Shown here piece by piece: positions 11,058 through 33,108 of a stretch of 44,989 bases of DNA. Numbering within the stretch: position 1 is the first letter of the stretch; each line of letters opens with the position of its first letter. The notes beneath the pieces were generated by a model that saw nothing but the letters and a program-made list of their open reading frames with translations, did not search any database and was not told the origin of the DNA. The DNA is from a virus, in IMG/VR virus record IMGVR_UViG_3300032180_000132, positions 1 through 44,989 of that record. One strand, 5' to 3'. The position numbers were made by a program, and so were the translations under genes.

Positions 11058-11064
11058 GGCCCCT

Positions 11065-15041: not shown

Positions 15042-16144
15042 GCCTAACCGGACCACTGTTACAAGGTATCGGCGAGGCCGGTGAGGACATCGGCAAGGGT
15101 GCTGAGGCTAATGTCCTCCAACAGCATCAGTTCACCATGGACTACCTTGCCAATCAGGCTCGCAATAGACAGCTGGGTCTTGAGCAGCAGAACCTCGATC
15201 AGCAGAATCAAATAGCTCATTCTCAGTTGCAGCTAGAGGGCAACCGCCAAGACCTGGAGCGCCAACAGTTCGAGCGCCAAGGACTACAGTATGCCGGGGC
15301 GGTGTCAGACGCTGATGGAAACTACTACCGTTCGTACATGGACCCTCTACGTGGCACCTCTATCAGGATGCCCTACCCGCCTGGGGTAGTACCGATAGAT
15401 AGCCCTGCTGGTCAGGCCAATGCTCGCAAGGTCATGATCGCTGCTGGGTTTCCCGAGCAGGCTGTTGACCAAGCCCTATTACACATAAGCTCTACTGGTG
15501 ACCCAACCGAGCGGTTATCAACCTGGCTTGCTTATGCTAAGGCCTCTGGGGCCATCCCTTCTGAGATAGCTGGCAATAAGGCCAAGGAGTTCGCGTGGGG
15601 AATCCAGGGTATCAAGGAAATCCAGGGTGGGTTCAATCCCTTCGACCCCCTTGCAGCAGGTGGTGGCATGACTCCTTCTGAGGCTGCTGAGTACAATCAA
15701 CTCGTCACCCAGCCCCTTAAGGAAGCTCAGGACACTTACAAGAATCAGATGGCTGGATACACTGATAGGATCAACAAGATACCCGTTGCCAATCCATACC
15801 TGGAGAAGCTATATCCGACTGTCCCTGCTCCGATGTATCCAGGGCAGGCTCCTATACCTGGAAGCAATCCCCCTGCATATCGCAATAGCCCCAGCGAGGG
15901 CGAGAGGGCTAAGGCTGAGACTCTTCGCCAGAGTGCTGAGGATGCTCATAAGCAGGCCATGGATCAATACACTCGCTTGGGGCAACAGTTGACGATGACC
16001 TACAATGCTCGTCATGGTCAAGGGCCATTCAGGTCGTCAGGCCCAGCAGTGCAGAAGTTCACTGTGGGAGATGAAGTCTACAATATCCCTACTGATCTTG
16101 TAGACGCGTTCAAGGCGGCTCATCCCAATGCCCAACAACAATAA
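15038..16144 (+). CDS. Putative ejection/internal virion protein 3 (coiled coil)
   Basis: A 368-residue protein. Residues 25-85 form a Gln-rich coiled coil (NRQLGLEQQNLDQQNQIAHS and QLEGNRQDLERQQFERQ). A folded middle portion follows, then a second helical region (SEGERAKAETLRQSAEDAHK) and a C-terminal segment ending in Gln. It lies between the other ejection-type proteins and the transglycosylase and overlaps the latter by 17 bases. No enzymatic motif. Confidence 0.5.
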   Translation: MSLTGPLLQGIGEAGEDIGKGAEANVLQQHQFTMDYLANQARNRQLGLEQQNLDQQNQIAHSQLQLEGNRQDLERQQFERQGLQYAGAVSDADGNYYRSYMDPLRGTSIRMPYPPGVVPIDSPAGQANARKVMIAAGFPEQAVDQALLHISSTGDPTERLSTWLAYAKASGAIPSEIAGNKAKEFAWGIQGIKEIQGGFNPFDPLAAGGGMTPSEAAEYNQLVTQPLKEAQDTYKNQMAGYTDRINKIPVANPYLEKLYPTVPAPMYPGQAPIPGSNPPAYRNSPSEGERAKAETLRQSAEDAHKQAMDQYTRLGQQLTMTYNARHGQGPFRSSGPAVQKFTVGDEVYNIPTDLVDAFKAAHPNAQQQ

Positions 16145-18206
16145 CACTGCTACCAATGCTGCTGACGAGTGGGAACAGTACAAGGTTACCCCAGCAGCGT
16201 CCAGTGTACCATCCAGCTTCTCGACTGGGATATCAGGACCCAACCAGTCTCAGCCCAGTTATCAGGATATGGCCCCTTATTACGCGCTCAAGTACAATCT
16301 CGATCCTGACATCTTCAGTAAGATGATCGAGACTGAATCGAACTGGAATCCTTCTGCTATATCACCTAAGGGTGCTATCGGCCTAGGCCAGTTAATGCCT
16401 GGAACAGCATCCGACATGCAGGTGGACCCCCTTGATCCTGCTGCCAATTTGGAAGGATCAGCCAAGTACCTATCTCAGTTATATCAGAAGTATGGTAGCT
16501 ATGACAAGGCCTTGGCTGCCTATAACGCTGGCCCTGGGCGAGTGGAGGCCGGTGGAGACCTTCCTGCTGAGACCCAAGCCTATGTGTCTAAGATTCTAGG
16601 GCAGCAGCAGGATGAGTGGGCTCAGTATAAGGCACCTAGGGCCGGGACTACTGCCCCAGCCACGACTCCACCTGCTGCTTCTGGCGCTCAGACTGTCCCT
16701 GCTGCTCCTAGTGGCCCTGGAGCCATCAATCGCTTCGAGTCCTCAGCTACCAACACCTTCGGGCTGCCTGCTGATGTCCGAGACTGGCCTGCTGCTTTCC
16801 GCGATATGGTCAGCAAGGGCATACCTATCAGCAACATCCCCAATACTCCAGGAGGGATAGCTGCTAAGGGCATGTTCGGCACTGCCAATGCCCTGGGTAA
16901 CATGATCAAGGGTATTGCTGAGAACTCTCGTGCTGCTAGCCAGGAGGGTCTGGACCTGATGAAGCAGCCTGGATATGGTGCTAAAATTGGTGGTGTGGAG
17001 CGCTTCATACTCGGTGGCATCCCGCAATATGGCCCCTTGCTGGTCAAGTGGGCAGATCAGCTAGAGAAGGGCGATGTAGCCGGGTCAATGGGGACTATAG
17101 CAGGCATGGGGCTACAGGGATTCATGTCCATGCCCGATACTGTAGCTGCCAAGCTCCAGGGGGCTTCGCAATATCTGATGGCCAAGTCTCGCGTGCAAGA
17201 AACCATCCTCGCATCAGAGACCCAGCATATGCTCAACTCGACTGAAGCCTCGGCGCGTGCTCAGGGTCATTCTCTATTCCCTTCTACTGACCAGAACCTC
17301 TCCGGGGCCACAGTAGCTGGTATTGCCCGGAAGGCCATCGACGACAACATCCGTGGGACTCCAGCTACCCCTCGCCCTCTTGGGTCAATGCTAGAGCCTG
17401 AGGAGTTCAAGAAGCTCGGGTCCATCGAGACTCCTGAGAGCAACCTGATGGAGATTTACCGTCGCATGACCTCTGGCGATGACATCCCAGCTAATGAGGT
17501 ACAGGGTTACCGGAGCGAGATTGGCCGCATTATGGCTCGTGGAGGGCTAGAGGGAGACGTGTATAGCACTCTTAAGCAGACCTATAATGGCCTGACTGGG
17601 GAACTCGACAAGCTCTATGCCAGTGAGGGTAAGTCTGCCCAATGGGAAGATGCCAATGTCAACTGGAAGAGATTGGCTACTACTTGGTGGGACAAGGATA
17701 GCCCCCTAGCGCAATCTATGAACGCCCGTGATGCCACAGCCATCCTCAAGCCACTGCTAGATGACCAGTCTGAGCGTGCTACTCAATATTTGAAGGACTA
17801 TCGCAACCATGGTGCTGATCCTGGTGCTGTCCAGGCCGCCCAGACCTTCTACAAGGGCATGAACCGGATGCAGTTTCGGGGCCTATGGAGAGCAGCAGGG
17901 CCGCTCATGGTCGCAGTACCACTCGGATATGCTGCTGGAGTACCTTACTCGGCTACCATGGGGGCTGTGATCGTCCCACTCATAATGGCCAAGATGGGCC
18001 TCGGCTGGGGTGAGACCCGCCCGTCGATGATCAAGATACTGTCCAATGAGCCGCCGACGGTACCAGGACAGCCTTGGATTCCACGTCAATCACCATTCAC
18101 ACCTTATCGGCCAACTAACATATTTCCTAGCTCAGTTCAAGCTCCTCCTGGGGCTCCTTCAGTTATACCCAAGGAGGCGCAAGACATCTTGGAAGGGTTA
18201 CAGTAA
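16128..18206 (+). CDS. Virion lytic transglycosylase fused to large internal protein
   Basis: A 692-residue protein that likely cleaves peptidoglycan locally during DNA entry. Residues 45-158 are a soluble lytic transglycosylase (Slt/LysM-type family 23) domain: IETESNWNP with catalytic Glu70, GAIGLGQLMPGTA (83-95), and AYNAGPGRV (131-139). A short motif DEWEQYK (13-19) recurs as DEWAQYK (162-168), bracketing the catalytic domain. The remaining 500 residues are helical with a Gly/Ala/Met hydrophobic segment near 605-650 (MVAVPLGYAAGVPYSATMGA). The fusion resembles T7 gp16-type internal proteins in concept, without sequence proof. Confidence 0.8.
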   Translation: MPNNNNTATNAADEWEQYKVTPAASSVPSSFSTGISGPNQSQPSYQDMAPYYALKYNLDPDIFSKMIETESNWNPSAISPKGAIGLGQLMPGTASDMQVDPLDPAANLEGSAKYLSQLYQKYGSYDKALAAYNAGPGRVEAGGDLPAETQAYVSKILGQQQDEWAQYKAPRAGTTAPATTPPAASGAQTVPAAPSGPGAINRFESSATNTFGLPADVRDWPAAFRDMVSKGIPISNIPNTPGGIAAKGMFGTANALGNMIKGIAENSRAASQEGLDLMKQPGYGAKIGGVERFILGGIPQYGPLLVKWADQLEKGDVAGSMGTIAGMGLQGFMSMPDTVAAKLQGASQYLMAKSRVQETILASETQHMLNSTEASARAQGHSLFPSTDQNLSGATVAGIARKAIDDNIRGTPATPRPLGSMLEPEEFKKLGSIETPESNLMEIYRRMTSGDDIPANEVQGYRSEIGRIMARGGLEGDVYSTLKQTYNGLTGELDKLYASEGKSAQWEDANVNWKRLATTWWDKDSPLAQSMNARDATAILKPLLDDQSERATQYLKDYRNHGADPGAVQAAQTFYKGMNRMQFRGLWRAAGPLMVAVPLGYAAGVPYSATMGAVIVPLIMAKMGLGWGETRPSMIKILSNEPPTVPGQPWIPRQSPFTPYRPTNIFPSSVQAPPGAPSVIPKEAQDILEGLQ

Positions 18207-18522: not shown

Positions 18523-18711
18523 ATGGCCAAGAAGCATGGTAGGTCCCTAGTCAGTCAGAAGATATCGGTGCTACGGCATGAGGGTACGCCACAACGACAG
18601 GCTGTGGCTGAAGCGATTAGCATGGGCCGTGCTGGTCGGCTGCGTCAGGGCGGAGTATACGTTAGAGCTAAGGGTAAGAAGTCTAATCGGGCATCTTCTA
18701 GGAGGTCTTAG
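18523..18711 (+). CDS. Small basic protein (HEGxPQxQA type) ending in R-x-S-S-R
   Basis: A 62-residue protein from ATG 18523 (AAGGA at 18510-18514); a TTG two codons earlier is less likely. The core KISVLRHEGTPQRQAVAEAI followed by SMGRAGRLRQGGVYVR resembles, from memory, a widespread small phage protein with 'EG.P.kQA.AIA....R' (DUF6496-like). It ends SNRASSRRS, sharing the R-x-S-S-R tail. Strongly basic. Its stop overlaps the next start by one base. Confidence 0.65.
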   Translation: MAKKHGRSLVSQKISVLRHEGTPQRQAVAEAISMGRAGRLRQGGVYVRAKGKKSNRASSRRS

Positions 18712-19556
18712 TGCTTAGACCATTCACACTCCTCATACTTATAGCAATCTTGCTGCTAGCATCCATGACTGCCTTGGCCCAATCCACTACCGTCACTGGC
18801 ACTGTCGCAGATCAGGTAAGTGGTCAACCCTATGCTGGGGGCACCGGTCAAGCCATATTCGTCCCTGGGGCCGGTGGGCAGCTATCCCTAGAAGGTGGCA
18901 CATCGACCTTCCAGCAGATTGTCCCAATAACCAGCATGACGGCAGCCGGGACATTCAGCGTGGTAGTGACCGACAATACCCAGATTCAGCCCTCTGGCAG
19001 CCAGTGGAAGTTTACCTTCTGCGATTCTACCAGGGCCTTCTGCTTCACGACAGCAGCCATCACGATCAGCGGCAGTAGCCAGTCCATCACCTCCAATATC
19101 AACTCGGTGGTGCTACCCCTGCCCCGCAGGCCGCAGACAGTCCAGTACGTAACCGCAGACGTATCCAACTCGACTGTCACCCCGGCAGCCATTACCGGAC
19201 TATCGTTTCCGGTAGTTGCCAATCAGAACTACACTCTAGAATGCAATATTATCTATCAGGCTGCTTCAACTGGGGGACTGGTCGTATCGTTCACTGGCCC
19301 AGCCTCGCCCACACAGGTATCGTACTCGCTCAACGAGGGCCTGTCAGCTACAACCTCGGGGTTCTCTGCCACGACTGGGACAACCTTCGCTACTACCCTA
19401 GGCGGGGTAGTGACCACTGCTGCAACCAACTTCCCAGCCTATCTGGAAATGGCCGTGGAGAATGGTGCCACTGCTGGGACTGTCCAGGTTATGTTCCAAT
19501 CGGCTGCTGCTGTTGCTACGACTGTGAAGAGGGGCTCGTACTGTACACTTCAATAG
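18711..19556 (+). CDS. Secreted beta-rich protein with shared DNTQI/QW[KR]F domain
   Basis: A 281-residue protein from GTG 18711 overlapping the previous stop. It begins with a Sec-type signal peptide (FTLLILIAILLLASMTALAQ, cut after ALA about residue 22). Residues 25-140 form a domain shared with the proteins at 21444 and 27894: TVTGTVADQ, TDNTQI, QWKFTFCDSTRAFCF, then SGSSQSITS. Two conserved Cys suggest a periplasmic disulfide. The C-terminal 130 residues are Thr/Ser/Gly beta sequence ending RGSYCTLQ, as in fibre tips. A receptor-binding or surface-displayed protein is likely; the signal peptide is unexpected for a virion part. Confidence 0.65.
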   Translation: MLRPFTLLILIAILLLASMTALAQSTTVTGTVADQVSGQPYAGGTGQAIFVPGAGGQLSLEGGTSTFQQIVPITSMTAAGTFSVVVTDNTQIQPSGSQWKFTFCDSTRAFCFTTAAITISGSSQSITSNINSVVLPLPRRPQTVQYVTADVSNSTVTPAAITGLSFPVVANQNYTLECNIIYQAASTGGLVVSFTGPASPTQVSYSLNEGLSATTSGFSATTGTTFATTLGGVVTTAATNFPAYLEMAVENGATAGTVQVMFQSAAAVATTVKRGSYCTLQ

Positions 19557-19566
19557 GAGGGGTTAT

Positions 19567-19764
19567 ATGGCTAAGATAGCTGAGGAACGTGCTGGCTGTA
19601 GCGAGAATATGTCCCTAGACCCTCGCAACACAGCCAAGTGTGGTCACGATGGTGGTCTGCGGGCCGATGACCTTCACCTGGAGACCTATTGTCTGCATCC
19701 TGAGCCCAAGGGTAACGCTCATCCGCCGTCCTGGGCAGGAGGTCACAGGGGCCGTCATGGCTGA
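19567..19764 (+). CDS. Small Cys/His-containing protein
   Basis: A 65-residue protein from ATG 19567 with AGGAGGGG at 19555-19562. It has CSEN near residue 11, KCGHDGG near 24 and YCLHPEP near 42, so three Cys with adjacent His that could bind a metal. The C terminus is Gly/His/Arg-rich (GGHRGRHG). It overlaps the next gene by 8 bases. Family unknown. Confidence 0.55.
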   Translation: MAKIAEERAGCSENMSLDPRNTAKCGHDGGLRADDLHLETYCLHPEPKGNAHPPSWAGGHRGRHG

Positions 19765-19966
19765 GCATGAGGTCAAACTGGGCAAAAAGGGCTCGTTTAA
19801 GGTTCATGAGGGTGCGCTACATCGTGCCCTGGGCGTTGCTGAGGGCAAGAAGATTCCAGCGTCTAAGATGAAGGGGCATCATAGCGGTCACCTGGGCAGG
19901 ATGATAGCCAGCGCTCGGGGATTGAAGGCCATGCACCATGGCTCTCGCAAGTCTAGTCGGAGGTAG
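19757..19966 (+). CDS. Small basic protein (LHRALGVxxGKKIP type) ending in R-x-S-S-R
   Basis: A 69-residue protein from ATG 19757. The segment LHRALGVAEGKKIPASKM followed by GHLGRMIASARGLKAM resembles, from memory, a common small phage protein pattern (LHxxLGIxxGxKIP...M...A). It ends HHGSRKSSRR, the R-x-S-S-R tail. Very basic. The cellular role of the whole group is unknown. Confidence 0.65.
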   Translation: MAEHEVKLGKKGSFKVHEGALHRALGVAEGKKIPASKMKGHHSGHLGRMIASARGLKAMHHGSRKSSRR

Positions 19967-19971
19967 TCCTG

Positions 19972-20166
19972 ATGGCTGCTAATGAGGTCCGCTACGAGAA
20001 GGCCGATGACGGTAGCTTCATCTCCCACACCCATCACGAAGATGGCAAGGATGGCAAGTACATCAAGCCTAGTGTCAATACTCACAGCAGTTTACAGGAC
20101 GCTGCGGCTCACCTGACCAGGGCATTCAAGAGGAAGCTATCTAGGCGCTCGTCGAGGAGGGGCTGA
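19972..20166 (+). CDS. Small basic protein ending in R-x-S-S-R
   Basis: A 64-residue protein with GGAGG before ATG 19972. The N-terminal part is mixed-charge and beta-like (NEVRYEKADDGSFISHTHHE), with His/Asp clusters (HTHHEDGKDGKY) that may bind metal; the C-terminal part is a basic helix ending KRKLSRRSSRRG. Apart from the tail it does not resemble its neighbours, so the motif is shared between otherwise unrelated chains. Its stop overlaps the next ATG. Confidence 0.65.
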   Translation: MAANEVRYEKADDGSFISHTHHEDGKDGKYIKPSVNTHSSLQDAAAHLTRAFKRKLSRRSSRRG

Positions 20167-20615
20167 TGAACCTGATAAAACGATATCTGCTATTAGCCAT
20201 ACTTATCACATCCCTGGGGATTGCTGCCCCGGCGTCAGTCTACAACACCACCACCCCTATCAATCTCGCTCCAGGTCAGACGGGCATCGTCTGGAATGCC
20301 GAGACCCCCACTCCAGGTAATGGCACCACTGCTGCCAGCCAGCAGGTAGCCCTAGCCCCAGGTCAGGGCACTACCCCATTTAGTGTCGATGGCCACTTCT
20401 CGGGGGCCCCTGGCGCGTTTGAGGTTGATGTGCAGATAGCCTCGAATGATGCCGATACAGACTATCAGACCTGCTCAAATTGCAACATAACCACTGTGGA
20501 CGCTACCAATCAGACCTTCCACCTGGATGCAGGGCTGGCTGTGGCGCATTACGTGAGGTTGCTCATGAGGTCGCGCACTAACTCAGTCACAATAACCGCT
20601 AGGATCAGCCGATGA
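20166..20615 (+). CDS. Secreted small beta protein
   Basis: A 149-residue protein with a Sec signal peptide (KRYLLLAILITSLGIAAPA, cut near residue 23). The mature part is a beta sandwich type (GQTGIVWNAETPTPG, HFSGAPGAFEVDVQIAS) with a vicinal CSNC pair near residues 99-102, and a C-terminal strand pattern VRLLMRSRTNSVTITARISR. ATG 20166 overlaps the previous stop. Probably a fibre-associated or surface protein; no enzyme motif. Confidence 0.6.
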   Translation: MNLIKRYLLLAILITSLGIAAPASVYNTTTPINLAPGQTGIVWNAETPTPGNGTTAASQQVALAPGQGTTPFSVDGHFSGAPGAFEVDVQIASNDADTDYQTCSNCNITTVDATNQTFHLDAGLAVAHYVRLLMRSRTNSVTITARISR

Positions 20616-21118
20616 AGAGATATCTGTTACCCATAATCGTTCTCATGCTCGCTATTGTCGGGGTTACATGGCCCCAGAGCCCTGGAGGGTCGTATAGCTC
20701 CCCAGGAGTCAATAATCTCCAGACAGTCACCAATTACAATGGTCAGGCTACAGCAGGTCAGGGCGTCGCACCAATCTTGGCCTATAATGCCACCACCCCC
20801 ACTACCCCAGTAGGCTCCACTTCCATTCTAACTGCTGCTCCTGCTGGAGCTTACCGGATCAGCGTGTATTATGTGGTGACCACGGCTGGCACGGTAGGTA
20901 CGGCAATCACCATGAATATAACCTACACCGATGCTCAGCAAGCACAGACAATCTCCACCATAACCTCTTCTGGTCTCGTCCAGGGGCAGTTTGTAACCGG
21001 CACCCTGTTCATCCAACAGCAGGCTAGTGGCAATATCAACTACACGATCACCGAAACTGGCAGCTTCACCGTCCATCCAGTCCTCGCGCTCAAGATTGCG
21101 CTGGAGAGGATAAATTGA
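20612..21118 (+). CDS. Secreted stand-alone copy of a fibre C-terminal domain
   Basis: A 168-residue protein overlapping the previous gene (ATGA). An N-terminal hydrophobic segment (RYLLPIIVLMLAIVGVTW) looks like a signal peptide or anchor. Residues 60-168 (GAYRISVYYVVTTAG, NITYTDAQQAQ, ALKIALERIN) align with the C-terminal domain of the beta-helix protein at 27894-29915 (GMYRVCSYEIVTQQA, VNVLWTDLDTN, ALHMRLEFLG). So a terminal module exists both as a domain and as a separate exported protein. Likely trimeric, fibre-tip-like beta fold by style. Confidence 0.6.
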   Translation: MKRYLLPIIVLMLAIVGVTWPQSPGGSYSSPGVNNLQTVTNYNGQATAGQGVAPILAYNATTPTTPVGSTSILTAAPAGAYRISVYYVVTTAGTVGTAITMNITYTDAQQAQTISTITSSGLVQGQFVTGTLFIQQQASGNINYTITETGSFTVHPVLALKIALERIN

Positions 21119-21444
21119 GGCGGCTTCTACTACTGCTATTGCTCATTCTGGGCCAACAGGGCTCTACTGGGACTAACTATGTCCCAATAATGACTGCCAC
21201 AACCGGCAGCATTGGTGGTAGTGCCCTCCTGGCTGGGGCATGTTCTAGCGGGACTGTGGCCGTAACGGGGGCGCAACCTGGGCAACCTGTTGTAGTCTCA
21301 GCGGCAGATGGTACGAACATCCCAGCGCTTGGGGTCAGCTTATCCGGCACCGTGACATCAGCCGGGACGGTTACAGTCAGTGTTTGTGCCCTCATAGGGC
21401 TCACGCCTACAGCCAAGACTTACTCGGTGAGGGTGATCCCTTGA
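21115..21444 (+). CDS. Secreted small Gly/Thr/Val-rich protein
   Basis: A 109-residue protein from TTG 21115, whose codon overlaps the previous TGA; GGAGAGGA lies just upstream. The N terminus RRLLLLLLLILGQQG is an extreme poly-Leu signal-peptide-like segment. The mature part is Thr/Gly/Val beta sequence with two Cys (AGACSSGTV, SVCALIG). No family recognised. Part of the continuous chain of exported-looking genes. Confidence 0.55.
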   Translation: MRRLLLLLLLILGQQGSTGTNYVPIMTATTGSIGGSALLAGACSSGTVAVTGAQPGQPVVVSAADGTNIPALGVSLSGTVTSAGTVTVSVCALIGLTPTAKTYSVRVIP

Positions 21445-24068
21445 TGCGGAGATTACTGCTAGTATTGGCCGGATTGGGATTCATACTTGTAGCTAGTCCA
21501 GTCTCGGCTCAAGTGGGCTTCACGACCGTCACAGCCCAGGTGATCGACCCCAATGGGAACAATTACGCCAACTGCTCTGTCAATACAACCTATGTCCCGG
21601 CCCCCACTGCTACAACTGTTCTGCCCACTCTAGCTGGGGTGCTGGTCAGGGCCCCTGGAGCTACCTACTGCGACGGGAATGGCAACCTGATTGTCACTGT
21701 GGCCGATAACACCCAGATTATGGATGGCCATGTCACTGGTGGGGCTACTTCCCAGTGGCGATTCACCATCTGCGCCCTGTCAGGGGCACCATGTTTTGCC
21801 TACTCCACAGCCGTTAGCGGGTCAAGCCAGAACCTGAGTGCTGCCATCCAGGCCGTAGCACCACTTTTGATAGCTATACCTAACAGTCTACTGGGCTCAC
21901 TGGGGGCTAATGGCCGCTGCCCTACGTCCAACGGTGCCCTGGTGGTCTGGGCTACTTGTGGTAGTGGCGGCGGGACTCCTGGAGGCTCTAATGGGCAGCC
22001 TCAGTATAACAATAACAACGTGTTTGCAGGCTTCACATTCGGCGGGGATTGTACATTCCTGGTGCCCAATCTGACCTGCACCAAGACTGCTGGCACACCA
22101 TTTGCCTCCAGTGCCACCACTGACACGACCAATGCTAGTAACATATCAAGTGGTACCCTGGCTGCTGCTCGCCTGCCAACCAGTGTGCCTACCTCGACAG
22201 TCAACGACACCAATGTCCTGGCGACGATAGTGAACAATGTCCTGACCATGGGGTGGACCAATCAGTTATCAGTCCCCAGGGGGGGTACTGGTCAGGGGTC
22301 GTTCACATCCCATGGGCCCATAGTAGGCGAGGCTGGAAGCCCATTTATATCAATCACCCCTGGGGCTAGCGGGACCTGTTTTATGTCCAATGGGGCTGCT
22401 GCTGACCCGTCATACCAGTCCTGCCCTAGCAGCACGGGATTTGCCAATCCCATGACCACCCTGGGTGACATAATCTTTGAGACTACTCCTCCTGGCCCTG
22501 CTCGATTGCCTGGGCCTACAGCACAGAACATCCCCTATGTGCTGACCAATACCCCCACTGCTGGGGTAGCTCAGGCACCTGCATGGTCTCTGCCTGGAGT
22601 CCCGTTCGATGCTCAACCGTGTACAGGTAATGCCTTCACCATTGGCAATAACGACCGGGAGAACCTAGTCACGATCAATGATGCCTCACCTTGCGCTATT
22701 ACACTCCCTCAGGCTGGGGCAGGGAACTTCACTAACAATTTCAACTTTGCTATCTGCAACATCGGTGCTGGCCTTGTGACCATGACGCCTACGACCTCCA
22801 CATTCAACGGTCTAGCGTCACAGATTCTGCCTAATCATTGGTGCTCTTATCCCTACAGTGACAATGCTAATTATCGCGCTCTGACCACCCCAGACTTTGC
22901 TGCCTATCCGTCATGCCCAACTGGGGCCTTGGGATTCAACACTGCTACTGGGGTTATCCCTTGCAATACCTTCGCTACCCTGGCACCGACCCCTATCCGT
23001 GCTGGGGACATCATCTACTGGAATGGTTCTGCCTGGATCGACCTGGCTGGCAATAATGGCAGTACAGGCTTCCTCCAGGAAACCGGTGCTGGAGTCCCAA
23101 GCTGGGCTGCCAGCGCCAACACCACTGCGTGGAGCGCCATAATCAATCCCACTACTAATCTCTCACTCACCATGGCAGCCTTCACCACTCTGTTCACCTT
23201 CAATGCTGCTACGGGGGCTGGAGTAGACCTATTCAAGTGGACCGATACCACCAATAACACTGGCACTGGCATCCTGGGGCATTTCACCACAGCCAGCGGG
23301 TCAGTACTCATCCCCTGGCAGGCAGACTTCAATGGTGTGGGATGGCGGGTAAATGCAGCAGGGAATCTATTCCCAGTGTCGACTGGCTCCCTAGCTATCC
23401 CTGGGACTGCTCATGGGGTAGTAGTCAGTGAGGGCGCGGCCACACCAGTAGCTGTCACGAATCCTGGGACCGCTAAGCAGATATTCACGTCAGGTGGTGC
23501 TGGGGCTGACCCGGTATACATAGACTTCCCTGATGTCAAGATCATTCCTCTGGCTAATTGTAATGCTGGGACTGCTGGTGCGGGGCCTGACATCCCATCT
23601 GCCAATGGATTCGCAGCAGCCTGTGTGGGCACTACAACAGTCAAGGGGGCATTACAAGGGACACCTAATGCTGGTACCAGTGTATTCTTCACGATTGATG
23701 GATATGCTCTGACCAAGGACTGGGACACTGCCAACCAGCCATTTGTCAGCGTAGAGTATGGCTCAGGCACGAATGCGTCCGGGACGGTTATCTGGACTGT
23801 CTCTGACGGGTGCACTAAGCTAGATGGCTCGGTGACTGACGACCCCGCGCTGAACGCCGAGTCAGCCATGGCCACTCAGACCATGACCACTGCCTCACGC
23901 TCATGGGGTCAGAACATGCAATTGGCACAGTTAACCAGTGGTAATAACTGTATCGTGGGCAGCCCTGTGAGCCTCAAGTTTACCTTGTCTGGTACAGCCT
24001 CAGCATTCATCAATGCTTATCGGGTAGTCATTACTCAGCCCCGACTGTTGACGGTGCAGGCGAACTGA
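21444..24068 (+). CDS. Large secreted tail-fibre-like protein
   Basis: An 874-residue protein from ATG 21444, which shares one base with the previous stop. Signal peptide RRLLLVLAGLGFILVASPVS ending VSA|Q. Residues 25-140 carry the shared domain (TTVTAQV, ADNTQI, QWRFTICALSGAPCF, SGSSQNLS). After a Gly/Pro linker near 195 come fibre-like repeats: NASNISSGTLAAARLP, then VPRGGTGQGSFTSHGPIVG, a pattern common in phage tail fibres. Long Asn/Thr/Gly beta regions lead to a C-terminal domain (VSVEYGSGTNAS, INAYRVVITQP). It is probably a receptor-binding fibre or a host-derived secreted adhesin. Confidence 0.65.
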   Translation: MRRLLLVLAGLGFILVASPVSAQVGFTTVTAQVIDPNGNNYANCSVNTTYVPAPTATTVLPTLAGVLVRAPGATYCDGNGNLIVTVADNTQIMDGHVTGGATSQWRFTICALSGAPCFAYSTAVSGSSQNLSAAIQAVAPLLIAIPNSLLGSLGANGRCPTSNGALVVWATCGSGGGTPGGSNGQPQYNNNNVFAGFTFGGDCTFLVPNLTCTKTAGTPFASSATTDTTNASNISSGTLAAARLPTSVPTSTVNDTNVLATIVNNVLTMGWTNQLSVPRGGTGQGSFTSHGPIVGEAGSPFISITPGASGTCFMSNGAAADPSYQSCPSSTGFANPMTTLGDIIFETTPPGPARLPGPTAQNIPYVLTNTPTAGVAQAPAWSLPGVPFDAQPCTGNAFTIGNNDRENLVTINDASPCAITLPQAGAGNFTNNFNFAICNIGAGLVTMTPTTSTFNGLASQILPNHWCSYPYSDNANYRALTTPDFAAYPSCPTGALGFNTATGVIPCNTFATLAPTPIRAGDIIYWNGSAWIDLAGNNGSTGFLQETGAGVPSWAASANTTAWSAIINPTTNLSLTMAAFTTLFTFNAATGAGVDLFKWTDTTNNTGTGILGHFTTASGSVLIPWQADFNGVGWRVNAAGNLFPVSTGSLAIPGTAHGVVVSEGAATPVAVTNPGTAKQIFTSGGAGADPVYIDFPDVKIIPLANCNAGTAGAGPDIPSANGFAAACVGTTTVKGALQGTPNAGTSVFFTIDGYALTKDWDTANQPFVSVEYGSGTNASGTVIWTVSDGCTKLDGSVTDDPALNAESAMATQTMTTASRSWGQNMQLAQLTSGNNCIVGSPVSLKFTLSGTASAFINAYRVVITQPRLLTVQAN

Positions 24069-25645
24069 TGCGACGGATAGCCGTGATATGGGCTCTGGTT
24101 GCCATTGAGGCAGTGTTCCTGTGCAATCTGGGTCAGAGGACTGTTAGGGCAGCCGGTCCAACCACGCCCACGTTCATAGACGCCAGCGCTCATATGAGCA
24201 CTAGCGGGGTGACGAACTCAGTCAGTGATTACGTCATATACTTGCTCAACACGAATATTGCTGGTAATTCTATTGTCGTAGGCTGCTCATGGAGCGCCAG
24301 TGGCAACCCTACAATGACAGTAACTGATGACGCCGGTGACTCGTTTACCACTGGGCCGACTAATAACGATGCTAATCAGATAGTCCAGATGTGGTGGGCG
24401 GTTAACACTGTCGGTGGTGCAACCAAGGTAACGGTCCATTCAAGTGTGACTGGTGTACTGCACAAAGGTTGTACATACGCGCAATATGCTGGCCTGGGCA
24501 ATCTGACCAATGATGGTACCTGCAACGCCAATGTCGCTAACGGGACCTTGGCTTGTGGTAGCTTTACAACCACCCACAATGGAGACCTGATCATCCATTT
24601 TTGGCAGTGCGATAGTCCGACTGGAGCCGGGAGCAATGCGTCAGTAGGAAGCCCAGGTGGTAGCTTTAGTAATGTCTCAATAAACTCCATGGAGTCATAC
24701 GGGTTCGACGCAGAGGTACAAGTCACTGCTGGTGCAGTCAATCCAACTGAAACGGTAACCAATTGCAGTGCAGGGCTTAGCGTTGGGGTGGCTTTGCAGG
24801 CGTCGGCTGGAGGCTCTGGTGCTACGATCAGTGGCCTCTATCTCCAGTGTATTGCTGTAGAAAATTTCCCAAATGCAATCTCCTCTACACAAGCGTTCCA
24901 GATGCCATGCGGAGACAGTTCTGGTAACCTGATCACTTGGACTGGCAATTTCAACTGTACGTCGGCCTGTACCGGGGCGGGCACAGACATAACCGCCGTA
25001 AGTGATGGGACAAATAGCTATCAGTTCGTTACTGGCACTGGTATAGGGGGTAGTACGGCGGGCTGTGCTGCGATCATGACGGCTAGCAATACCGGCCTCT
25101 GTCTGGGTTATGCTTGTAATGCCACGATTGCAAGCTCGACGCGGCTAACATTCACGTGGACCGGCAGTGATGCCAACATGCTCGTCGCTATGGCCGTTTG
25201 GAAGGGAGCAAAAACTGGCAGCAGTACTGCCTGCTTTGATAAAGCTGCATTGACTACGAGTACATGTACAGCCTCTCCAGCGTGTGTACCGCCTTCTGGA
25301 GCATCGTTACCATTGAGCGGCCCAACGCTTACTCCCTCAGTAGCGAATGAGGGTGCATATGGTTACCAGCAGGAAGATGCTCAAGCCGTCACTGGAACAG
25401 GCTCTAATGTTGGAACCCCGCACTTCGAGGATATAGACTTTAAGTTCTATGGTAGCAATGAACTGGAGCAGGATGGAGGACTGTTTCACATCTACCTGAC
25501 CACTACTGCTGCTGTCACGCCTACGTTCTCATACTCGAATTACGATGCTGGTCAGACGGTCCAGGGATATGGCTCGATCATGGCTCTATTCCTGCCAGCG
25601 GTTGGGGCCCCTGCTGTCCATAACGCTATCCCGCAGGTGCTGTGA
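24068..25645 (+). CDS. Secreted beta-sandwich protein
   Basis: A 525-residue protein with a signal peptide (AVIWALVAIEAVFLCNLGQ, likely cut after VRA near residue 28). The mature protein shows two related beta regions: SIVVGCSWSASGNPTMTVTDD with WWAVNTVGGATKVTVHS, and later RLTFTWTGSDANMLVAMAVW. Many Cys pairs suggest oxidised export. Only two CTAG tetranucleotides occur in 1.58 kb, fewer than in most late genes, so recent acquisition is possible. No fibre repeat is seen; a surface adhesin-like role is guessed. Overlaps both neighbours by one to four bases. Confidence 0.6.
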   Translation: MRRIAVIWALVAIEAVFLCNLGQRTVRAAGPTTPTFIDASAHMSTSGVTNSVSDYVIYLLNTNIAGNSIVVGCSWSASGNPTMTVTDDAGDSFTTGPTNNDANQIVQMWWAVNTVGGATKVTVHSSVTGVLHKGCTYAQYAGLGNLTNDGTCNANVANGTLACGSFTTTHNGDLIIHFWQCDSPTGAGSNASVGSPGGSFSNVSINSMESYGFDAEVQVTAGAVNPTETVTNCSAGLSVGVALQASAGGSGATISGLYLQCIAVENFPNAISSTQAFQMPCGDSSGNLITWTGNFNCTSACTGAGTDITAVSDGTNSYQFVTGTGIGGSTAGCAAIMTASNTGLCLGYACNATIASSTRLTFTWTGSDANMLVAMAVWKGAKTGSSTACFDKAALTTSTCTASPACVPPSGASLPLSGPTLTPSVANEGAYGYQQEDAQAVTGTGSNVGTPHFEDIDFKFYGSNELEQDGGLFHIYLTTTAAVTPTFSYSNYDAGQTVQGYGSIMALFLPAVGAPAVHNAIPQVL

Positions 25646-27891
25646 TGAGATGCTTGATGCGATACTTCTCACTGTTGTTGGCAATGCTCATCTGGTGTGG
25701 GACAGCCCTCGCCCAGACAACCGATGGCCCAGCTACTCTCCCTACTGGATTCAGCACCACCAACGGGGTGTTCAGCACGGCCTTCCCTAACACCACCGGC
25801 TACACGATAGCAACTGTTCCAGGCACTTATCCCGACTATCAGACAGCACTCAACTCGGTAGCCTGCAACACGATCATCAAGCTAGCTGCTGGATCGACCT
25901 ATACAGGTTCCTTCAATCTTGTGAGGACCTGCCCAGCGGGACAGTGGCGCATCACCATGGTCAGTACCTGCAATAACGATGGTACCTGTCCGGTGGCATC
26001 AGGACTCCCCAGCCAGGGTACACGGGTCACGACAGGTGAAGCAGGCTCGATGGCTAAACTTGTAGCTTGTTCGTCGAACTGTAATAACGTGCCTACCCTG
26101 AACGTGGCTGGCAACTATGGCACATCTGGTCTAGCAGCATCAGGCTACTGGTTCGGGCCAGGGATTGAGATTCTGCCTCCAGCAGATGCTTCATGTAGTG
26201 GAAGCGGGGGGAGTGTAACCTGTACATCATTCCAACAGGGTGGGCTTGTTCTGGACAATCACGCCTCGGCTCTCTCGATCAGCAATATCGTTTATGACCG
26301 TGTTCTCGGGATGTGCCCGTCGAACGCCGAATGCGCCAGGATCATCGCTACTTCCGGGGACCATGAAGCTATTGTTGATTCTGTTTTGATCGGTGCCCAC
26401 GGCGGTCCTGATTCTCAACAAGCGCAAGCCTGGTGGGAAGGTGAAGGTGTTGGCCCCTACAAGGTCGTTAACAACGAACTCGGCGGCAGCGGCATGGGCA
26501 GCTTGGCTGGTGGGGCGGGCTGTCCTGCCAACTCCGGCTTGCCGCCGCATGATCTCGAATACGCTGGAAACTATGTTCACTACGATCTGGGAACCGGCTC
26601 CATCCTTTCGTTCTGGGCTGCCGCCAATGTGGGCAATACGCGTGCCATCCTGGAAATGAAAGAAGGCCTCCGCTGGCTGGTTCAAGGAAATTACATGGAT
26701 GGCGGGGCCGTAGCGCAGAATGCGCCCAATGGCACTGCCTTTGCTTACGGAATCCTGGAACGCGCAAGCGACAACCCGGGCAATGGCGGATGCACCACCA
26801 ACTATACGCAGGACGTGACCACTCGATTCAACAAGATTCTTCACCCTGCCATCGCCATCGATTTGCAGGGCGGCAACGATCAGGCCGCGGCACCTTTCTT
26901 CAAGAACTTCAGCGTGCACGACAACATGGCCGACGACATCAACCGTGTGAACGGCACGAGCGACAGCACGGCGGGCACGGCCATGACCATCGATACGTTC
27001 AGTTCCCCGCCCAGCCAGAATATCCTCATCAATCACAACACCTTCATCTCGTCTACCACTGGGCACTCTTGGATGGATATTCAGTGCCCTGCTGCCCCGT
27101 TTCTTCCGACCTTTGTTATCACTAACAATATTGCCCTAGAGAACTCCTTCGGATTCTCGGCCTTCATTTTCGCCGGGGGCCAGTTCACGACTACTTATAC
27201 AGGGGGCAACGGCTGGGAACCTAACTGCTTCAACACCCCATTCCAGGATGTGGTTAGCTCGAACCTGTCTATAGGTACAGTCCAAGCAACATGGAAGCCT
27301 GGAAATACGACTGGTATAGCGATTGCTAGCGTAGGCTTCACGAATTACAATGGCGGCAACGGTGGCAATTACCAACTCCTAGGCACTAGTCCCTATATCA
27401 CCGCAGCGAGTGATGGTGGCCCACTTGGAGTGTCGAACTGGTCCTGCCTCAACTCCATGACTGCGGCAGCCTTCAATGGGACCTACACCGAGCTAATAGG
27501 AGCCTGTGCCAGTGGAGGGGGGAGTGTTGCTCCAGTAGTGGTGATTACCCCAGTGACCATAACCCTGGGCAATTCTCAGCAGGGTAATGCTGGTGGTATG
27601 GCAACAGCCACTGTGACCAATAGTGGCACTGCTACACTTGTACTCAACACCCCATACTTTAACATATCAGGGTCTAATCCCCTAGACTTCTCCAATCTGG
27701 GTACAGGTACCTGTGCTAATGGGGCCTCTGTGGGGATAGGGCTAAGCTGTACTGTGAACCTACAATTCACCCCCGCACTGGCTAGTTCCGAATCCGCAAC
27801 CTTGAACATTCTCGGTAATGCCAACGGGTCGGCCTCGATGACAGGGACTGGTACAGCTAGAGGGATAGCTAGGGGGATGTCAGTAAGGTAG
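25645..27891 (+). CDS. Secreted right-handed beta-helix protein with anchor-D-like C-terminus
   Basis: A 748-residue protein from ATG 25645 (GTG 25642 is possible and overlaps the prior stop). Signal peptide MRYFSLLLAMLIWCGTALAQ, cut ALA|Q. Residues 35-600 read as a right-handed parallel beta-helix (pectate-lyase-like): YPDYQTALNSVACNTIIKLA, ALSISNIVYDRVLGM, GLRWLVQGNYMDGG, SVHDNMADD, ILINHNTFISS. Residues about 630-735 resemble an anchor-D/HYDIN-like Ig domain (SQQGNAGGMATATVTNSGTA, SCTVNLQFTP). Either a depolymerase-type tailspike or a host-derived secreted enzyme; no catalytic residues can be assigned. The middle third has different base use (see findings). Confidence 0.65.
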   Translation: MRCLMRYFSLLLAMLIWCGTALAQTTDGPATLPTGFSTTNGVFSTAFPNTTGYTIATVPGTYPDYQTALNSVACNTIIKLAAGSTYTGSFNLVRTCPAGQWRITMVSTCNNDGTCPVASGLPSQGTRVTTGEAGSMAKLVACSSNCNNVPTLNVAGNYGTSGLAASGYWFGPGIEILPPADASCSGSGGSVTCTSFQQGGLVLDNHASALSISNIVYDRVLGMCPSNAECARIIATSGDHEAIVDSVLIGAHGGPDSQQAQAWWEGEGVGPYKVVNNELGGSGMGSLAGGAGCPANSGLPPHDLEYAGNYVHYDLGTGSILSFWAAANVGNTRAILEMKEGLRWLVQGNYMDGGAVAQNAPNGTAFAYGILERASDNPGNGGCTTNYTQDVTTRFNKILHPAIAIDLQGGNDQAAAPFFKNFSVHDNMADDINRVNGTSDSTAGTAMTIDTFSSPPSQNILINHNTFISSTTGHSWMDIQCPAAPFLPTFVITNNIALENSFGFSAFIFAGGQFTTTYTGGNGWEPNCFNTPFQDVVSSNLSIGTVQATWKPGNTTGIAIASVGFTNYNGGNGGNYQLLGTSPYITAASDGGPLGVSNWSCLNSMTAAAFNGTYTELIGACASGGGSVAPVVVITPVTITLGNSQQGNAGGMATATVTNSGTATLVLNTPYFNISGSNPLDFSNLGTGTCANGASVGIGLSCTVNLQFTPALASSESATLNILGNANGSASMTGTGTARGIARGMSVR

Positions 27892-27893
27892 GG

Positions 27894-29915
27894 ATGGTAA
27901 CTATGAGACCTAGATTGCTTAGACTACTGAAATTGCTACCTGCATTGTTGCTAGCCCTGTCATGGGCTATAACGGTCAGGGCTCAGACTGGCTACACATC
28001 CGTCACAGCCGTTGTGCAGGACTCGTTTGGCACTGTATATCAGAATGCTCCCTACACGGTAACCTTCTTTGATCCTGGCATATCAGGGAAGCTACCCACG
28101 CTGACCAACGGTAGCACCTTTCAACAGTTCTATGCTGGGTATGCTACCGACAGCAGCGGCAACCTGTCAATCATGTTGCCTGATAATAACACCATCGCTG
28201 CTGCCTCTGGTGCGACTGGGACTCAATGGCGCTTCAGCATCTGCTCCAATATCCAGGTCAGCAATCCCCCTCAGTGCTTCAGTGTGCTGCTGACCATCAC
28301 TGGGACTAGCCAGAATATCACTAGCGCCTTATCGGCTGCTGCGGCTCTATTGCCCCCTACGGCACAGTCACAGGCACTGAAGCCCAAACCGTCTGATGCC
28401 ATACAGTTTGTATCTGCCAGTGGTAATGACTTGAACGATGGGCGTAGTATGGGATCGGCAAAGCTGACGTGGCAGGCAGGAGCTACCGCCGCATGTGTTG
28501 GACAGACTGGGCATGTGTACATAGCAGCAGGAGTCTATCCTGCCACTAGCGATGTCAATCTGACCGGCTTAACCTCTGGCTGTGTGATCGAGGGTGTAGC
28601 ATCCTTTGCCACTACTCCAGGGGCGACTCTCTACAACGGAACTGTTCTACAAGTGAGTTTCACAGGGGCCAACACGGTTGGAGTTGATATTTCTTCAGTG
28701 AACTCACTGACCCTTCGCAATCTAGTGATTTCCTGTGGCACCTCTACGGCGAATTCACCAACCATCTGTCTGCTGCACGGTCGAAGCTCTGGTTCAAACG
28801 GGATTCAGGATACCTTCGACCATTTGTTCGTGGTCGGCTATAGCCCTTGGATTTATTACAACTATCATGGCGAGCAACTATCAGCGATTGATTGCCTATT
28901 CGGTGAGTATGCTACAACGGGGACACCTATAACGCTTAGTGAGGTTAACACAGCAGGGATCACAAGCCCGAATGTTACCTTCGGAGGAGTCAATTCTGAA
29001 ACAGTCTTTGCCTTTGAGGGCGGGACTACTTCGGTTACAAGTCAGGCTACTGCTGCTGGGTCTAAGCTATTATATCTGGATGAGGGCTCAGCAAGTATCC
29101 AGAGTGTTCGCTTTCGGGGATTCGCTAACCTATCTGCGGCAAATGAGGTATTCGTAGGTGATACGTCTGGAGCTACCGGGGCTATTCAGGATGTGACTAT
29201 AGAAGTGACAGCACAAGATTCCACCCCTGGCAGCAACTCCATGACCTCCATTGCTGGAACCGCAGATTCTTGGCATATCACTGGGCTTCAGACTTCAGGT
29301 GCAACCACAACGCCGTTCGTATTCTCTACCTTGGTTCGCCATTCGTTCATCGACTTCTCTGTAGGAGTAGTGACTGGATCATGCTTCACAGCCAGCGGGG
29401 ATGCGATTGCCAGTACTATAATACTCGACTTCGCCTGTGGTGGGCATGTCACAGCACCTGGGGCCTTTATCTCTACGAGCAGTGTACAGAGTCCTGTAGT
29501 TGCTGAAGTCAATCTCACGACTCAGGCAGCCAATATCGGCGCGACGACACTCTATATCGTGCCTGCTAGCGGGGCAGGGATGTATCGTGTCTGCTCTTAT
29601 GAGATTGTCACTCAGCAAGCTACTACCTCATCTACGCTTCCCCAAGTCAACGTGCTCTGGACTGATCTTGATACCAATACTGTTCCCTCAGCCGGTCTAG
29701 GAGCAATCATTGAGCAGAGCGGTATAGGTGGCTCTAATCCAGCAGTAGGCACAGTGGCGAGCTATGTTAACGGCCTTGCGGCAAACGTAGCTTGTTTGGC
29801 TATTGATGCTAGGGCCAGTACCAACATCCAGTATTCAACAACACTTTACGCTAGCTCTGGTGCGACACCAATGCTGTACGCGCTCCACATGCGGCTGGAG
29901 TTCCTAGGACCGTGA
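27894..29915 (+). CDS. Secreted tailspike-like beta-helix protein with shared N- and C-terminal domains
   Basis: A 673-residue protein from ATG 27894 (ATG 27903 also possible). Signal peptide KLLPALLLALSWAITVRAQ, cut VRA|Q. Residues 36-155 are the shared domain (YTSVTAVVQD, PDNNTI, QWRFSICSN, QCF, TGTSQNITS). FVSASGNDLNDGRSMGSAK (about 172-190) is the typical entry of a pectate-lyase-like beta-helix, continuing to about 540. Residues 550-673 match the stand-alone protein at 20612. The layout of anchor domain, helix and terminal domain is that of a tailspike; the export signal is anomalous. Its last 12 bases overlap the reverse-strand gene that follows. Confidence 0.65.
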   Translation: MVTMRPRLLRLLKLLPALLLALSWAITVRAQTGYTSVTAVVQDSFGTVYQNAPYTVTFFDPGISGKLPTLTNGSTFQQFYAGYATDSSGNLSIMLPDNNTIAAASGATGTQWRFSICSNIQVSNPPQCFSVLLTITGTSQNITSALSAAAALLPPTAQSQALKPKPSDAIQFVSASGNDLNDGRSMGSAKLTWQAGATAACVGQTGHVYIAAGVYPATSDVNLTGLTSGCVIEGVASFATTPGATLYNGTVLQVSFTGANTVGVDISSVNSLTLRNLVISCGTSTANSPTICLLHGRSSGSNGIQDTFDHLFVVGYSPWIYYNYHGEQLSAIDCLFGEYATTGTPITLSEVNTAGITSPNVTFGGVNSETVFAFEGGTTSVTSQATAAGSKLLYLDEGSASIQSVRFRGFANLSAANEVFVGDTSGATGAIQDVTIEVTAQDSTPGSNSMTSIAGTADSWHITGLQTSGATTTPFVFSTLVRHSFIDFSVGVVTGSCFTASGDAIASTIILDFACGGHVTAPGAFISTSSVQSPVVAEVNLTTQAANIGATTLYIVPASGAGMYRVCSYEIVTQQATTSSTLPQVNVLWTDLDTNTVPSAGLGAIIEQSGIGGSNPAVGTVASYVNGLAANVACLAIDARASTNIQYSTTLYASSGATPMLYALHMRLEFLGP

Positions 29916-30722: not shown

Positions 30723-31127
30723 ATGATGTGGGTCTACGAGCAGATAGCTGGCCGCATATCGCAGAACAACGTCACCCTGACCGATACTGCCTACTCGGGC
30801 CACCAGCCGCATGTCAACGATCCTGCTGCTGAGAATATACCCTTCGAGGGGCCTATCCCACGAGGGCTATACACAATCACAGGCATGGAGGACAGTCCTC
30901 ACACAGGTCCGATGACACTGATCCTGACTCCTGACCCTAGCAATGAGATGTTCGGTCGCAAGGACTTCAGGATTCATGGCGATGACATCCACAAGCCCGG
31001 TCAACATTGTGCTAGTGATGGATGTATAGTAGCTGGTCCCGGGCCTAGGATGACGATGTGGAATAGCCCTGATCACCTGGTACAAGTGGTTGACACTCTC
31101 AAGACCGAGAGCGACTTGTGGCCTTGA
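30723..31127 (+). CDS. L,D-transpeptidase-fold (YkuD/DUF2778-like) protein, putative cell-wall enzyme
   Basis: A 134-residue protein after two membrane proteins. It contains GPIPRGLYTITGM (43-55), then GRKDFRIHGDDIH with His85 and ASDGCIVAGPGPR with Cys101, matching the H-G-x(n)-S-x-G-C catalytic signature of L,D-transpeptidase/Tlde1-like proteins. These enzymes act on peptide stems of peptidoglycan as transpeptidases or carboxypeptidases. In a lysis position it may be the endolysin equivalent or modify the wall. No signal peptide, so it would need holin help. Starts ATG 30723 or 30726. Its 3' end overlaps the reverse gene by 29 bases. Confidence 0.65.
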   Translation: MMWVYEQIAGRISQNNVTLTDTAYSGHQPHVNDPAAENIPFEGPIPRGLYTITGMEDSPHTGPMTLILTPDPSNEMFGRKDFRIHGDDIHKPGQHCASDGCIVAGPGPRMTMWNSPDHLVQVVDTLKTESDLWP

Positions 31128-32481: not shown

Positions 32482-33108
32482 CTATTGTCTCCGCTGAGCC
32501 TTCTCCAGGTCACGTTGGCGTTTGGCTGCTCGACGGGCCGCCCGCTTCTGCAAGAACGCTAGCGATGGATGGCTGGGGAAGGTCAGATAGATGCCTGTAG
32601 CTACATTCTTGATATTGGACAGGCTCGTGTGACCATTGGGGATGATGGTTGACCCTAGAAGGGTGAAGTCAATAGCCCTGATCGTAAGGGTGTCATTGAC
32701 CTTATAATCCAATCCGGCTCCGATGGCCCAGGCTGGCTTGGTAGCCCCAGAGGGATTCTTGACTACCCCACCACCGGCATTGACAAAGGGCAGCATCCTT
32801 GCTGTGTCCAGGAACTCATTGCCCTTGACCAGATGCGACAATGCGGCTTGAGCCTGAGCACGTCCGGTTGAGGCTAGCAGTCCCCCACCGAATGTGAAGG
32901 CATCCAGGCGAGCGTTGAAGTAGTCGTTGATGTGATACTCGACTGTCTCGACTGAGCCGTCGTTGGTAGCGCCACCAGTGGTGTTGTAGGTGGCTCCGAC
33001 TGCGATGACGTAGGTGCCCTCGGGTGGGGTAGGGGGTACCTGGGCATGGACGGCTGTGACTGACAGAAGCAGTGCGATTACAGCTAATCCTAGTTTTGCA
33101 AGTTTCAT
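32482..33108 (-). CDS. Secreted outer-membrane beta-barrel-like protein
   Basis: A 208-residue protein with a clean signal peptide (LGLAVIALLLSVTAVHAQ, cut VHA|Q) and AGGAGG before ATG 33108. The mature part alternates beta strands with turns (YVIAVGATYNTTGGATN, DGSVETVEYHIND, ARLDAFTFGGG, AWAIGAGLDYKVNDTLTIRA), typical of a small 8-strand-type porin-like barrel, ending ATGIYLTFP near 183. A 20-residue basic tail (LQKRAARRAAKRQRDLEKAQ) follows and would sit outside the barrel in the periplasm or outside. Phage-encoded OMP-like proteins can block superinfection or alter receptors. It lies behind a near-consensus promoter. Confidence 0.55.
   Translation of the reverse strand: MKLAKLGLAVIALLLSVTAVHAQVPPTPPEGTYVIAVGATYNTTGGATNDGSVETVEYHINDYFNARLDAFTFGGGLLASTGRAQAQAALSHLVKGNEFLDTARMLPFVNAGGGVVKNPSGATKPAWAIGAGLDYKVNDTLTIRAIDFTLLGSTIIPNGHTSLSNIKNVATGIYLTFPSHPSLAFLQKRAARRAAKRQRDLEKAQRRQ

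Follow-up and report, generated by a model that had tools for sequence, protein, structure and literature searches.

Signal-peptide-bearing candidate fibre proteins with paired cysteines in the late module of a podovirus-like virus

The eight-gene block and its surroundings

The window analysed here is the whole 44,989-base stretch of a soil-phage record (IMG/VR IMGVR_UViG_3300032180_000132, positions 1 to 44,989) with a podovirus-like late module, and our subject is a block of eight plus-strand genes at 18711-29915 whose products begin with hydrophobic, signal-like N termini and are candidate exported fibres or spikes. Three of the eight share an N-terminal domain without a Pfam match, hereafter the N-domain, and are treated as putative exported fibre proteins 1 to 3. 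Fibre 1 (18711-19556; 281 residues, GTG start) has a predicted cleavage site ALA/Q at residues 23/24, where the slash marks the cut, four cysteines, and an N-domain at 18780-19120 that carries the cysteine pair of columns 98/115 (alignment A5). Fibre 2 (21444-24068; 874 residues, site VSA/Q) has 20 cysteines, a GGTG motif of tail-fibre type and an N-domain at 21507-21935 with both cysteine pairs, while fibre 3 (27894-29915; 673 residues, site VRA/Q) has an odd number of cysteines, 11, an N-domain at 27984-28364 with the 98/115 pair, and a C-terminal part in common with the gene at 37063 of the related contig G005.

The remaining five genes encode a small putative exported protein (20166-20615; 149 residues, site APA/S, two cysteines), two small proteins with hydrophobic N termini and weak cleavage sites (20612-21118, 168 residues, no cysteine; 21115-21444, 109 residues, TTG start, two cysteines, with a C-terminal relative in contig G040) and two larger predicted exported proteins. 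Of the latter, the product of 24068-25645 (525 residues) has 17 cysteines, one of them within the signal peptide, and relatives in contigs G016 and G034 that likewise bear signal peptides; the product of 25645-27891 (748 residues, site ALA/Q) has 18 cysteines after the signal and a choice-of-anchor D domain at its C-terminal end. The tight coupling proposed in a first-pass annotation of this DNA holds from 19972 to 25645, where the overlaps are 1, 4, 4, 1, 1 and 1 bases, and does not hold at either end, as 18711-19556 and 20166 are set apart by small signal-less genes and intervals of 10 and 207 bases, and a 2-base gap lies just 5' of 27894. The sequence AGGAGG is found 5' of the starts at 18711 and 20166.

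Upstream of the block are genes for terminase (48-1898), portal (2787-4490), major head protein (7170-8291) and, judging from position and weak matches, tail proteins (9801-13449). The final virion-body gene, directly preceding the block, is the plus-strand gene at 16128-18206, which encodes a 692-residue putative internal virion or lytic tail protein with an SLT transglycosylase domain (PHROG lytic tail protein, E 5.5e-31; Pfam SLT, E 4.9e-23), no signal peptide and no cysteine. Cysteine is likewise missing from internal virion proteins in general and from a 206-residue family next to them (window 14364-18206 and relatives; none in 3936, 736 and 3746 residues), the opposite of the fibres. Directly after the block, 30723-31127 on the plus strand encodes a protein with a Tlde1 domain (L,D-transpeptidase-like; Pfam E 9.8e-14), possibly a lysis protein, and similar N termini were recognized by eye in G005, G006 and G034. 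Also outside the block, the minus-strand gene at 32482-33108 encodes a 208-residue protein with a clear signal peptide (VHA/Q) and no cysteine.

Because direct scans with two long proteins of the window returned no relatives, related contigs were reached through the capsid and a tail protein. The head-protein search gave 80 related loci at 53-89% identity; 42 records were probed, with a portal in 41, and 21 of the 42 relatives were read, G027 (60,000 of 77,872 bases) and G042 (40,000 of 41,370) in part. Two of the resulting 22 contigs, G001 and G036, stop before the block. The order is conserved: terminase, portal, scaffold, capsid, tail proteins, two cysteine-free internal proteins and then a run of large genes, so that the signal-bearing genes are encoded in the late virion module, adjoining the tail and internal virion genes. 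A second site for signal-bearing genes, several with the N-domain, lies after the capsid or first tail gene in G005, G010, G016, G002 and G038. Near the lysis region, small lipoprotein-like or twin-arginine-like genes recur (G005 44370, G007 38807, G033 42432 and G041 12117, by eye on re-oriented contigs), and the G034 portal has one internal TGA stop, which reflects either a mistake in the assembly or recoding or frameshifting of the gene. Searches of genome contigs with N-domain and capsid patterns found no prophage or host genome.

Signal peptides and cysteine pairing

Signal peptides were called with a home-made rule that scores hydropathy of the hydrophobic (h-) region, N-terminal charge and the -3/-1 site. 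All eight N termini of the block, each at a true open reading frame (ORF) start, are hydrophobic and signal-like as first proposed; six pass the strict rule, and 20612 and 21115, which have strong hydrophobic N termini, fail solely on the cleavage site. The sites quoted earlier for 18711, 21444, 25645 and 27894 were borne out. For 24068 the rule places the site at LVA/IE, and VRA/AG at residue 28 appears likelier by eye. Of 54 genes in fibre position with a length of at least 250 residues, spread over the window and 19 further contigs, 51 pass. This figure rests on a hand-curated list that genes entered on position and signal alone, cysteine counts being visible in some outputs. The list omits G041 32-2866 (start at a contig edge), small signal-bearing genes that lie elsewhere than in the block, and the majority of genes shorter than 250 residues; seven of these shorter genes were kept (from the window, G035 and G040), and the small genes of G005, G012 and G034 were not.

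The rule is selective. It is passed by 3/351 other ORFs of at least 250 residues, by 1/5374 internal methionine, valine or leucine positions of the fibre proteins themselves, and by 3/190 homologues of 14 virion-body genes. In five isolates, 11 proteins annotated as tail or fibre components were checked and none passes, in agreement with the earlier statement that tail fibres normally lack an export signal. A comparison with ORFs of a Granulicella plasmid yielded two usable ORFs and was uninformative. Among 58 called sites alanine occupies -1 in 45 and -3 in 32; glutamine at +1 in 47 of the 58 is an inflated count because the rule rewards it, and a version without this bonus called 48/58, with glutamine in 24 of the 48. 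We conclude that the Sec-type signal peptides are real and recur beyond the window. The possibility that they are a prediction artefact, in which starts are misplaced or hydrophobic N termini of fibres pass for signals, draws on the home-made rule and the hand-curated list, and we regard it as highly improbable given so few false positives at internal positions and in other ORFs and the repetition of the effect in other lineages and in author-annotated isolates.

Cysteines provide a second line of evidence. In 20 aligned N-domains, columns 26 and 60 both carry cysteine in 11 and both lack it in 9, and columns 98 and 115 both carry it in 16 and both lack it in 4, with no discordant row for either pair; columns 121 and 147 carry it in 2 and lack it in 18, and those 2 are among the four without the 98/115 pair. 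Fisher values for the cysteine pairs (6e-6 and 2e-4) overstate independence because the rows are related. Counted over 57 signal-bearing proteins that contain cysteine, even totals rise from 39 as precursors to 50 with the signal removed (p 2.1e-9), and in a scan of fixed cuts evenness tops at 50/57 at residue 25 and falls to chance level by residue 45-70. With one protein per homology cluster, 28/31 are even as mature chains (p 2.3e-6) versus 21/31 as precursors. Where the signal itself holds an odd number of cysteines (13 proteins), 12/13 are odd as precursors and 12/13 even as mature chains. No bias to even counts was seen in controls, comprising other ORFs (183/406) and homologues of terL, portal, capsid and tail genes (36/102).

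Since this parity pattern is otherwise hard to explain, it suggests, together with the covariation, that the proteins lose their signals and become oxidised outside the cytoplasm; export plus oxidation is very probably correct on this evidence. The other option raised in the first-pass annotation, that uncleaved hydrophobic N termini anchor the proteins in the membrane or tail, could draw on the long h-regions and poor cleavage sites of 20612 and 21115. It is nevertheless improbable, because even counts emerge only with the loss of about 25 residues from the N terminus; most N termini, moreover, carry a -3/-1 site of A-x-A type, and the segment is absent altogether from a 445-residue fibre of contig G012, in which the N-domain begins right at the start codon and which has neither signal nor cysteine. 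Cysteines number 6 in 1703 residues in three signal-less fibre-position genes and 966 in 46,877 residues in the signal-bearing proteins.

Fibre identity and the possibility of a non-virion role

Having considered export, we turn to what is exported. The N-domain common to 18711, 21444 and 27894 is found in relatives with very different C-terminal parts, behaviour that in sequence terms is that of a tail-fibre anchor domain. The relative L101, which combines signal, N-domain and body, matches many tail-fibre PHROGs (best 1e-46) and also the annotated tail-fibre proteins of isolates, and other signal-bearing relatives match tail fiber (L137, 8.3e-12), tail spike (L128, 4.3e-10) or tail protein families. 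Several signal-bearing proteins, 21444 included, contain GGTG motifs, which we take to be typical of tail fibres. Among the window's own scanned proteins there was no match to a tail fibre or spike family; the best match of the C-terminal half of 18711 was to a Streptomyces phage at only E 0.04, and another signal-bearing protein had no plasmid match.

An AlphaFold2 model of the fibre 2 N-domain (predicted local distance difference test, pLDDT, 86.6; 20 sequences) folds as a transthyretin-like beta sandwich. Second among its viral Foldseek matches comes a tail fiber protein of Podoviridae sp. ctIlO27 (E 8.5e-5, template-modelling score 0.59, root-mean-square deviation 2.3), and among solved phage parts it resembles the neck fibre of cyanophage A-1(L) (8keg, Z 7.5) and the Bxb1 tail tip (Z 6.8), both under the caution line of Z 8 and with unrelated transthyretin-like folds scoring equal or higher in the top rows. 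No match to the PDB was obtained at E 0.001, and the fold by itself proves nothing. A model of fibre 3 made without an alignment was poor (pLDDT 39) and was not used. The N-domain model also resembles intradiol dioxygenases, including a soil 'phage catechol 1,2-dioxygenase' (9yh9; Z 7.4, 8% identity), and it may be worth looking for fibre N-domains among soil-virus genes assigned on the strength of this fold.

These observations bear on the first-pass proposal that the block encodes host-derived secreted proteins that reshape the infected cell surface. The secretion half of that proposal gains from the cysteine covariation and parity; the half concerning host-derived, surface-reshaping proteins is unsupported because the relatives fill the tail-fibre slot, share the N-domain ahead of variable C-terminal parts and match tail-fibre and spike families. 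A different non-virion role deserves more weight. The proteins could be exported and disulfide-bonded yet remain free or surface-bound, as adhesins or depolymerases that coat the cell, block superinfection or clear matrix polysaccharide. Signals and cysteine pairing demand export and nothing further, and the domains seen (choice-of-anchor D, pectate-lyase-like and, in gp342 of the cultured phage Tunturi 5, GDSL lipase and laminin-G-like) would suit such a role. The Bdellovibrio MAT proteins offer a precedent in which phage-fibre-like proteins are exported with a beta-rich domain of about 130 residues after the signal, as set out in passages of PMC10769870. We consider this explanation possible and rather doubtful, as the proteins sit in the fibre slot and seem to be the sole receptor-binding candidates of these genomes, the same N-domain occurs in the same slot without a signal in G012, L101 has a tail-fibre body, and the counterparts in Tunturi phages are annotated, by prediction only, as tail fiber, tail spike or virion structural proteins. 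We regard presence of the fibres on the virion as moderately likely.

Exported fibres in other phages and in known systems

The arrangement is not confined to the window family. Tunturi 1-5 are isolates of Acidobacteriota (Tunturiibacter) described in PMC11924767, and their fibre, spike and structural annotations are predictions. In Tunturi 2, gp12, gp13 (tail fiber), gp14 (pectin lyase), gp16 and gp17 (virion structural) pass the signal rule and none of 20 other checked genes does; Tunturi 1 is similar, with gp14 annotated as tail spike. Mature cysteine counts are 20, 10, 20, 1 and 32 in Tunturi 1 and 20, 10, 20, 1 and 34 in Tunturi 2. The jumbo phage Tunturi 5 has four signal-bearing proteins, gp337, gp338, gp341 and gp342 (mature cysteines 18, 6, 14 and 12), of which three are annotated tail fiber and one virion structural. 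Searches with fibres of Tunturi 5 and Tunturi 2 returned, among isolates, only the Tunturi records themselves, and no homology is claimed between the N-domain profile and Tunturi 3 gp15 (hhalign, in register, only E 0.094) or Tunturi 2 gp17 (0.29). In the main text of PMC11924767, its supplements aside, the terms fiber, fibre, spike and mass spectrometry do not occur. The same paper gives an iPHoP host prediction for Tunturi 1, 2 and 5 only, which are the isolates with signal-bearing fibres; this may be coincidence. The host of the window phage would, we infer, belong to the Acidobacteriota, given the parallel with Tunturi and the presence of a choice-of-anchor D domain.

A further set of five contigs (L157-L161), reached by way of a motif in the body of the fibre of G012, showed no match to the portal of the window family. 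Their fibre genes are signal-bearing, one of the five having been missed by the strict rule and judged by eye, and cysteine counts are even in 14/16 mature chains and 9/16 precursors, L158 and L161 being partly near-duplicates. L158 encodes a large cysteine-free protein, read by eye as a tape measure, with three signal-bearing fibres nearby.

Taken together, signals, cysteine pairing, fibre-type genes in the fibre slot and, indirectly, cleavage are supported at the level of sequence, and we favour, with a probability of roughly 0.55, the reading that the block encodes Sec-exported fibres or spikes that fold in the periplasm, form disulfides and dock to virions at lysis. Under this scheme the fibres would cross the inner membrane as Sec substrates, signal peptidase I would remove the signal peptide, and the oxidising periplasm would allow folding with many cysteines paired into disulfides. 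Heads, tail tubes and the internal virion proteins, with few or no cysteines, would be assembled in the cytoplasm, and the breach of the inner membrane at lysis would bring fibres and particles together. The mature N-domain, common to several fibres per phage, would then attach to the tail, leaving the variable remainder to bind or degrade the host surface. Host-binding arms and the remainder of the particle would probably mature in separate compartments of the cell. The step with the least support is docking as cells lyse or afterwards, which is put forward tentatively, at a little under even odds.

Several observations weigh against this reading. Three fibre-position genes lack a signal, two in G012 and one in G008. 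Mature cysteine counts are odd in 7/57 proteins, including that of 27894 and, by the rule, that of 24068, which becomes even with the likelier site. Most of the 48 signal-bearing proteins scanned are without a known family, Pfam, PHROGs and NCBIfam families matching one or two members each, and two signal-bearing proteins of the window had no match among isolate phages. In Tunturi 3 and 4, 0/24 and 0/20 checked genes pass the signal rule and the fibre and tail proteins are cysteine-poor. As these two phages manage with signal-less fibres, export would be a strategy of the phage and not a requirement of the host.

Viewed more broadly, the data would fit a split route of tailed-phage morphogenesis, in which fibres made as Sec precursors undergo disulfide folding in the periplasm and join cytoplasm-built particles at or after lysis, a generalization for and against which we hold the odds to be even. 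With the same reservation, the route would extend over podovirus-like lineages, long-tailed ones that bear a tape measure and jumbo myoviruses, some of which at least infect Acidobacteriota, and homologous fibres would have acquired or given up export together with all of their cysteines. Assembly of tailed phages is taught as a cytoplasmic process. If the host-binding parts of entire phage lineages do mature in the periplasm, assembly must end at lysis, oxidative folding by the host becomes one of the host factors on which infectivity depends, and recombinant work on these fibres would need oxidising conditions. A further caution is against naming signal-bearing genes of soil viruses auxiliary metabolic genes, as they may be spikes. 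Tunturi 3 shares strain X5P2 with Tunturi 1 and 2, so that exported and ordinary fibres occur in phages of one strain and the question is testable now.

Signal peptides on the tail fibres of tailed phages were not reported in the full-text literature searched, which is weak evidence of absence because subscription journals and preprints were not covered. Textbook tail fibres and tailspikes (T7 gp17, P22 gp9 and N4-type) are cytoplasmic proteins. The candidates described here share with them a position after tail and internal virion genes, a conserved N-terminal domain followed by mosaic C-terminal parts, GGTG motifs, pectate-lyase-like parts and, in relatives, tail-fibre PHROG matches, and differ in having a signal peptide and about 2% cysteine, even in number and paired. 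Another parallel for the proposed route is the minor coat protein pIII of filamentous phages, an adhesion protein that is exported by Sec, disulfide-bonded and then joined to the virion, as would be the case here, but filamentous phages are non-tailed and are extruded through the membrane without lysis.

The Bdellovibrio MAT proteins share the signal peptide, the beta-rich domain, a phage-fibre-like body and diverse tips, but in the parts of PMC10769870 that describe them they are products of bacterial genes displayed by a predator cell, with no phage particle, whereas the window proteins are encoded in a phage virion module. An autoproteolytic S74 C-terminal domain is given there for 13/21 MATs and is absent in 8; S74 is not among the Pfam families listed for the 48 scanned proteins. 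Exported phage proteins are themselves already known, as lysis enzymes (PMC6116005) and as lambda Lom (PMC12309495). Lys44 of phage fOg44, a signal-peptide endolysin, is like the candidate fibres a late phage protein that uses host Sec export and loses its signal, and unlike them a lysis enzyme and not an adhesion protein, according to the sections of PMC6116005 that deal with it. Lambda Lom, as presented in part of PMC12309495, has a signal peptide and a gene between those for tail spike and tail fibre, but it is a single outer-membrane beta-barrel that enters the host membrane and no fibre.

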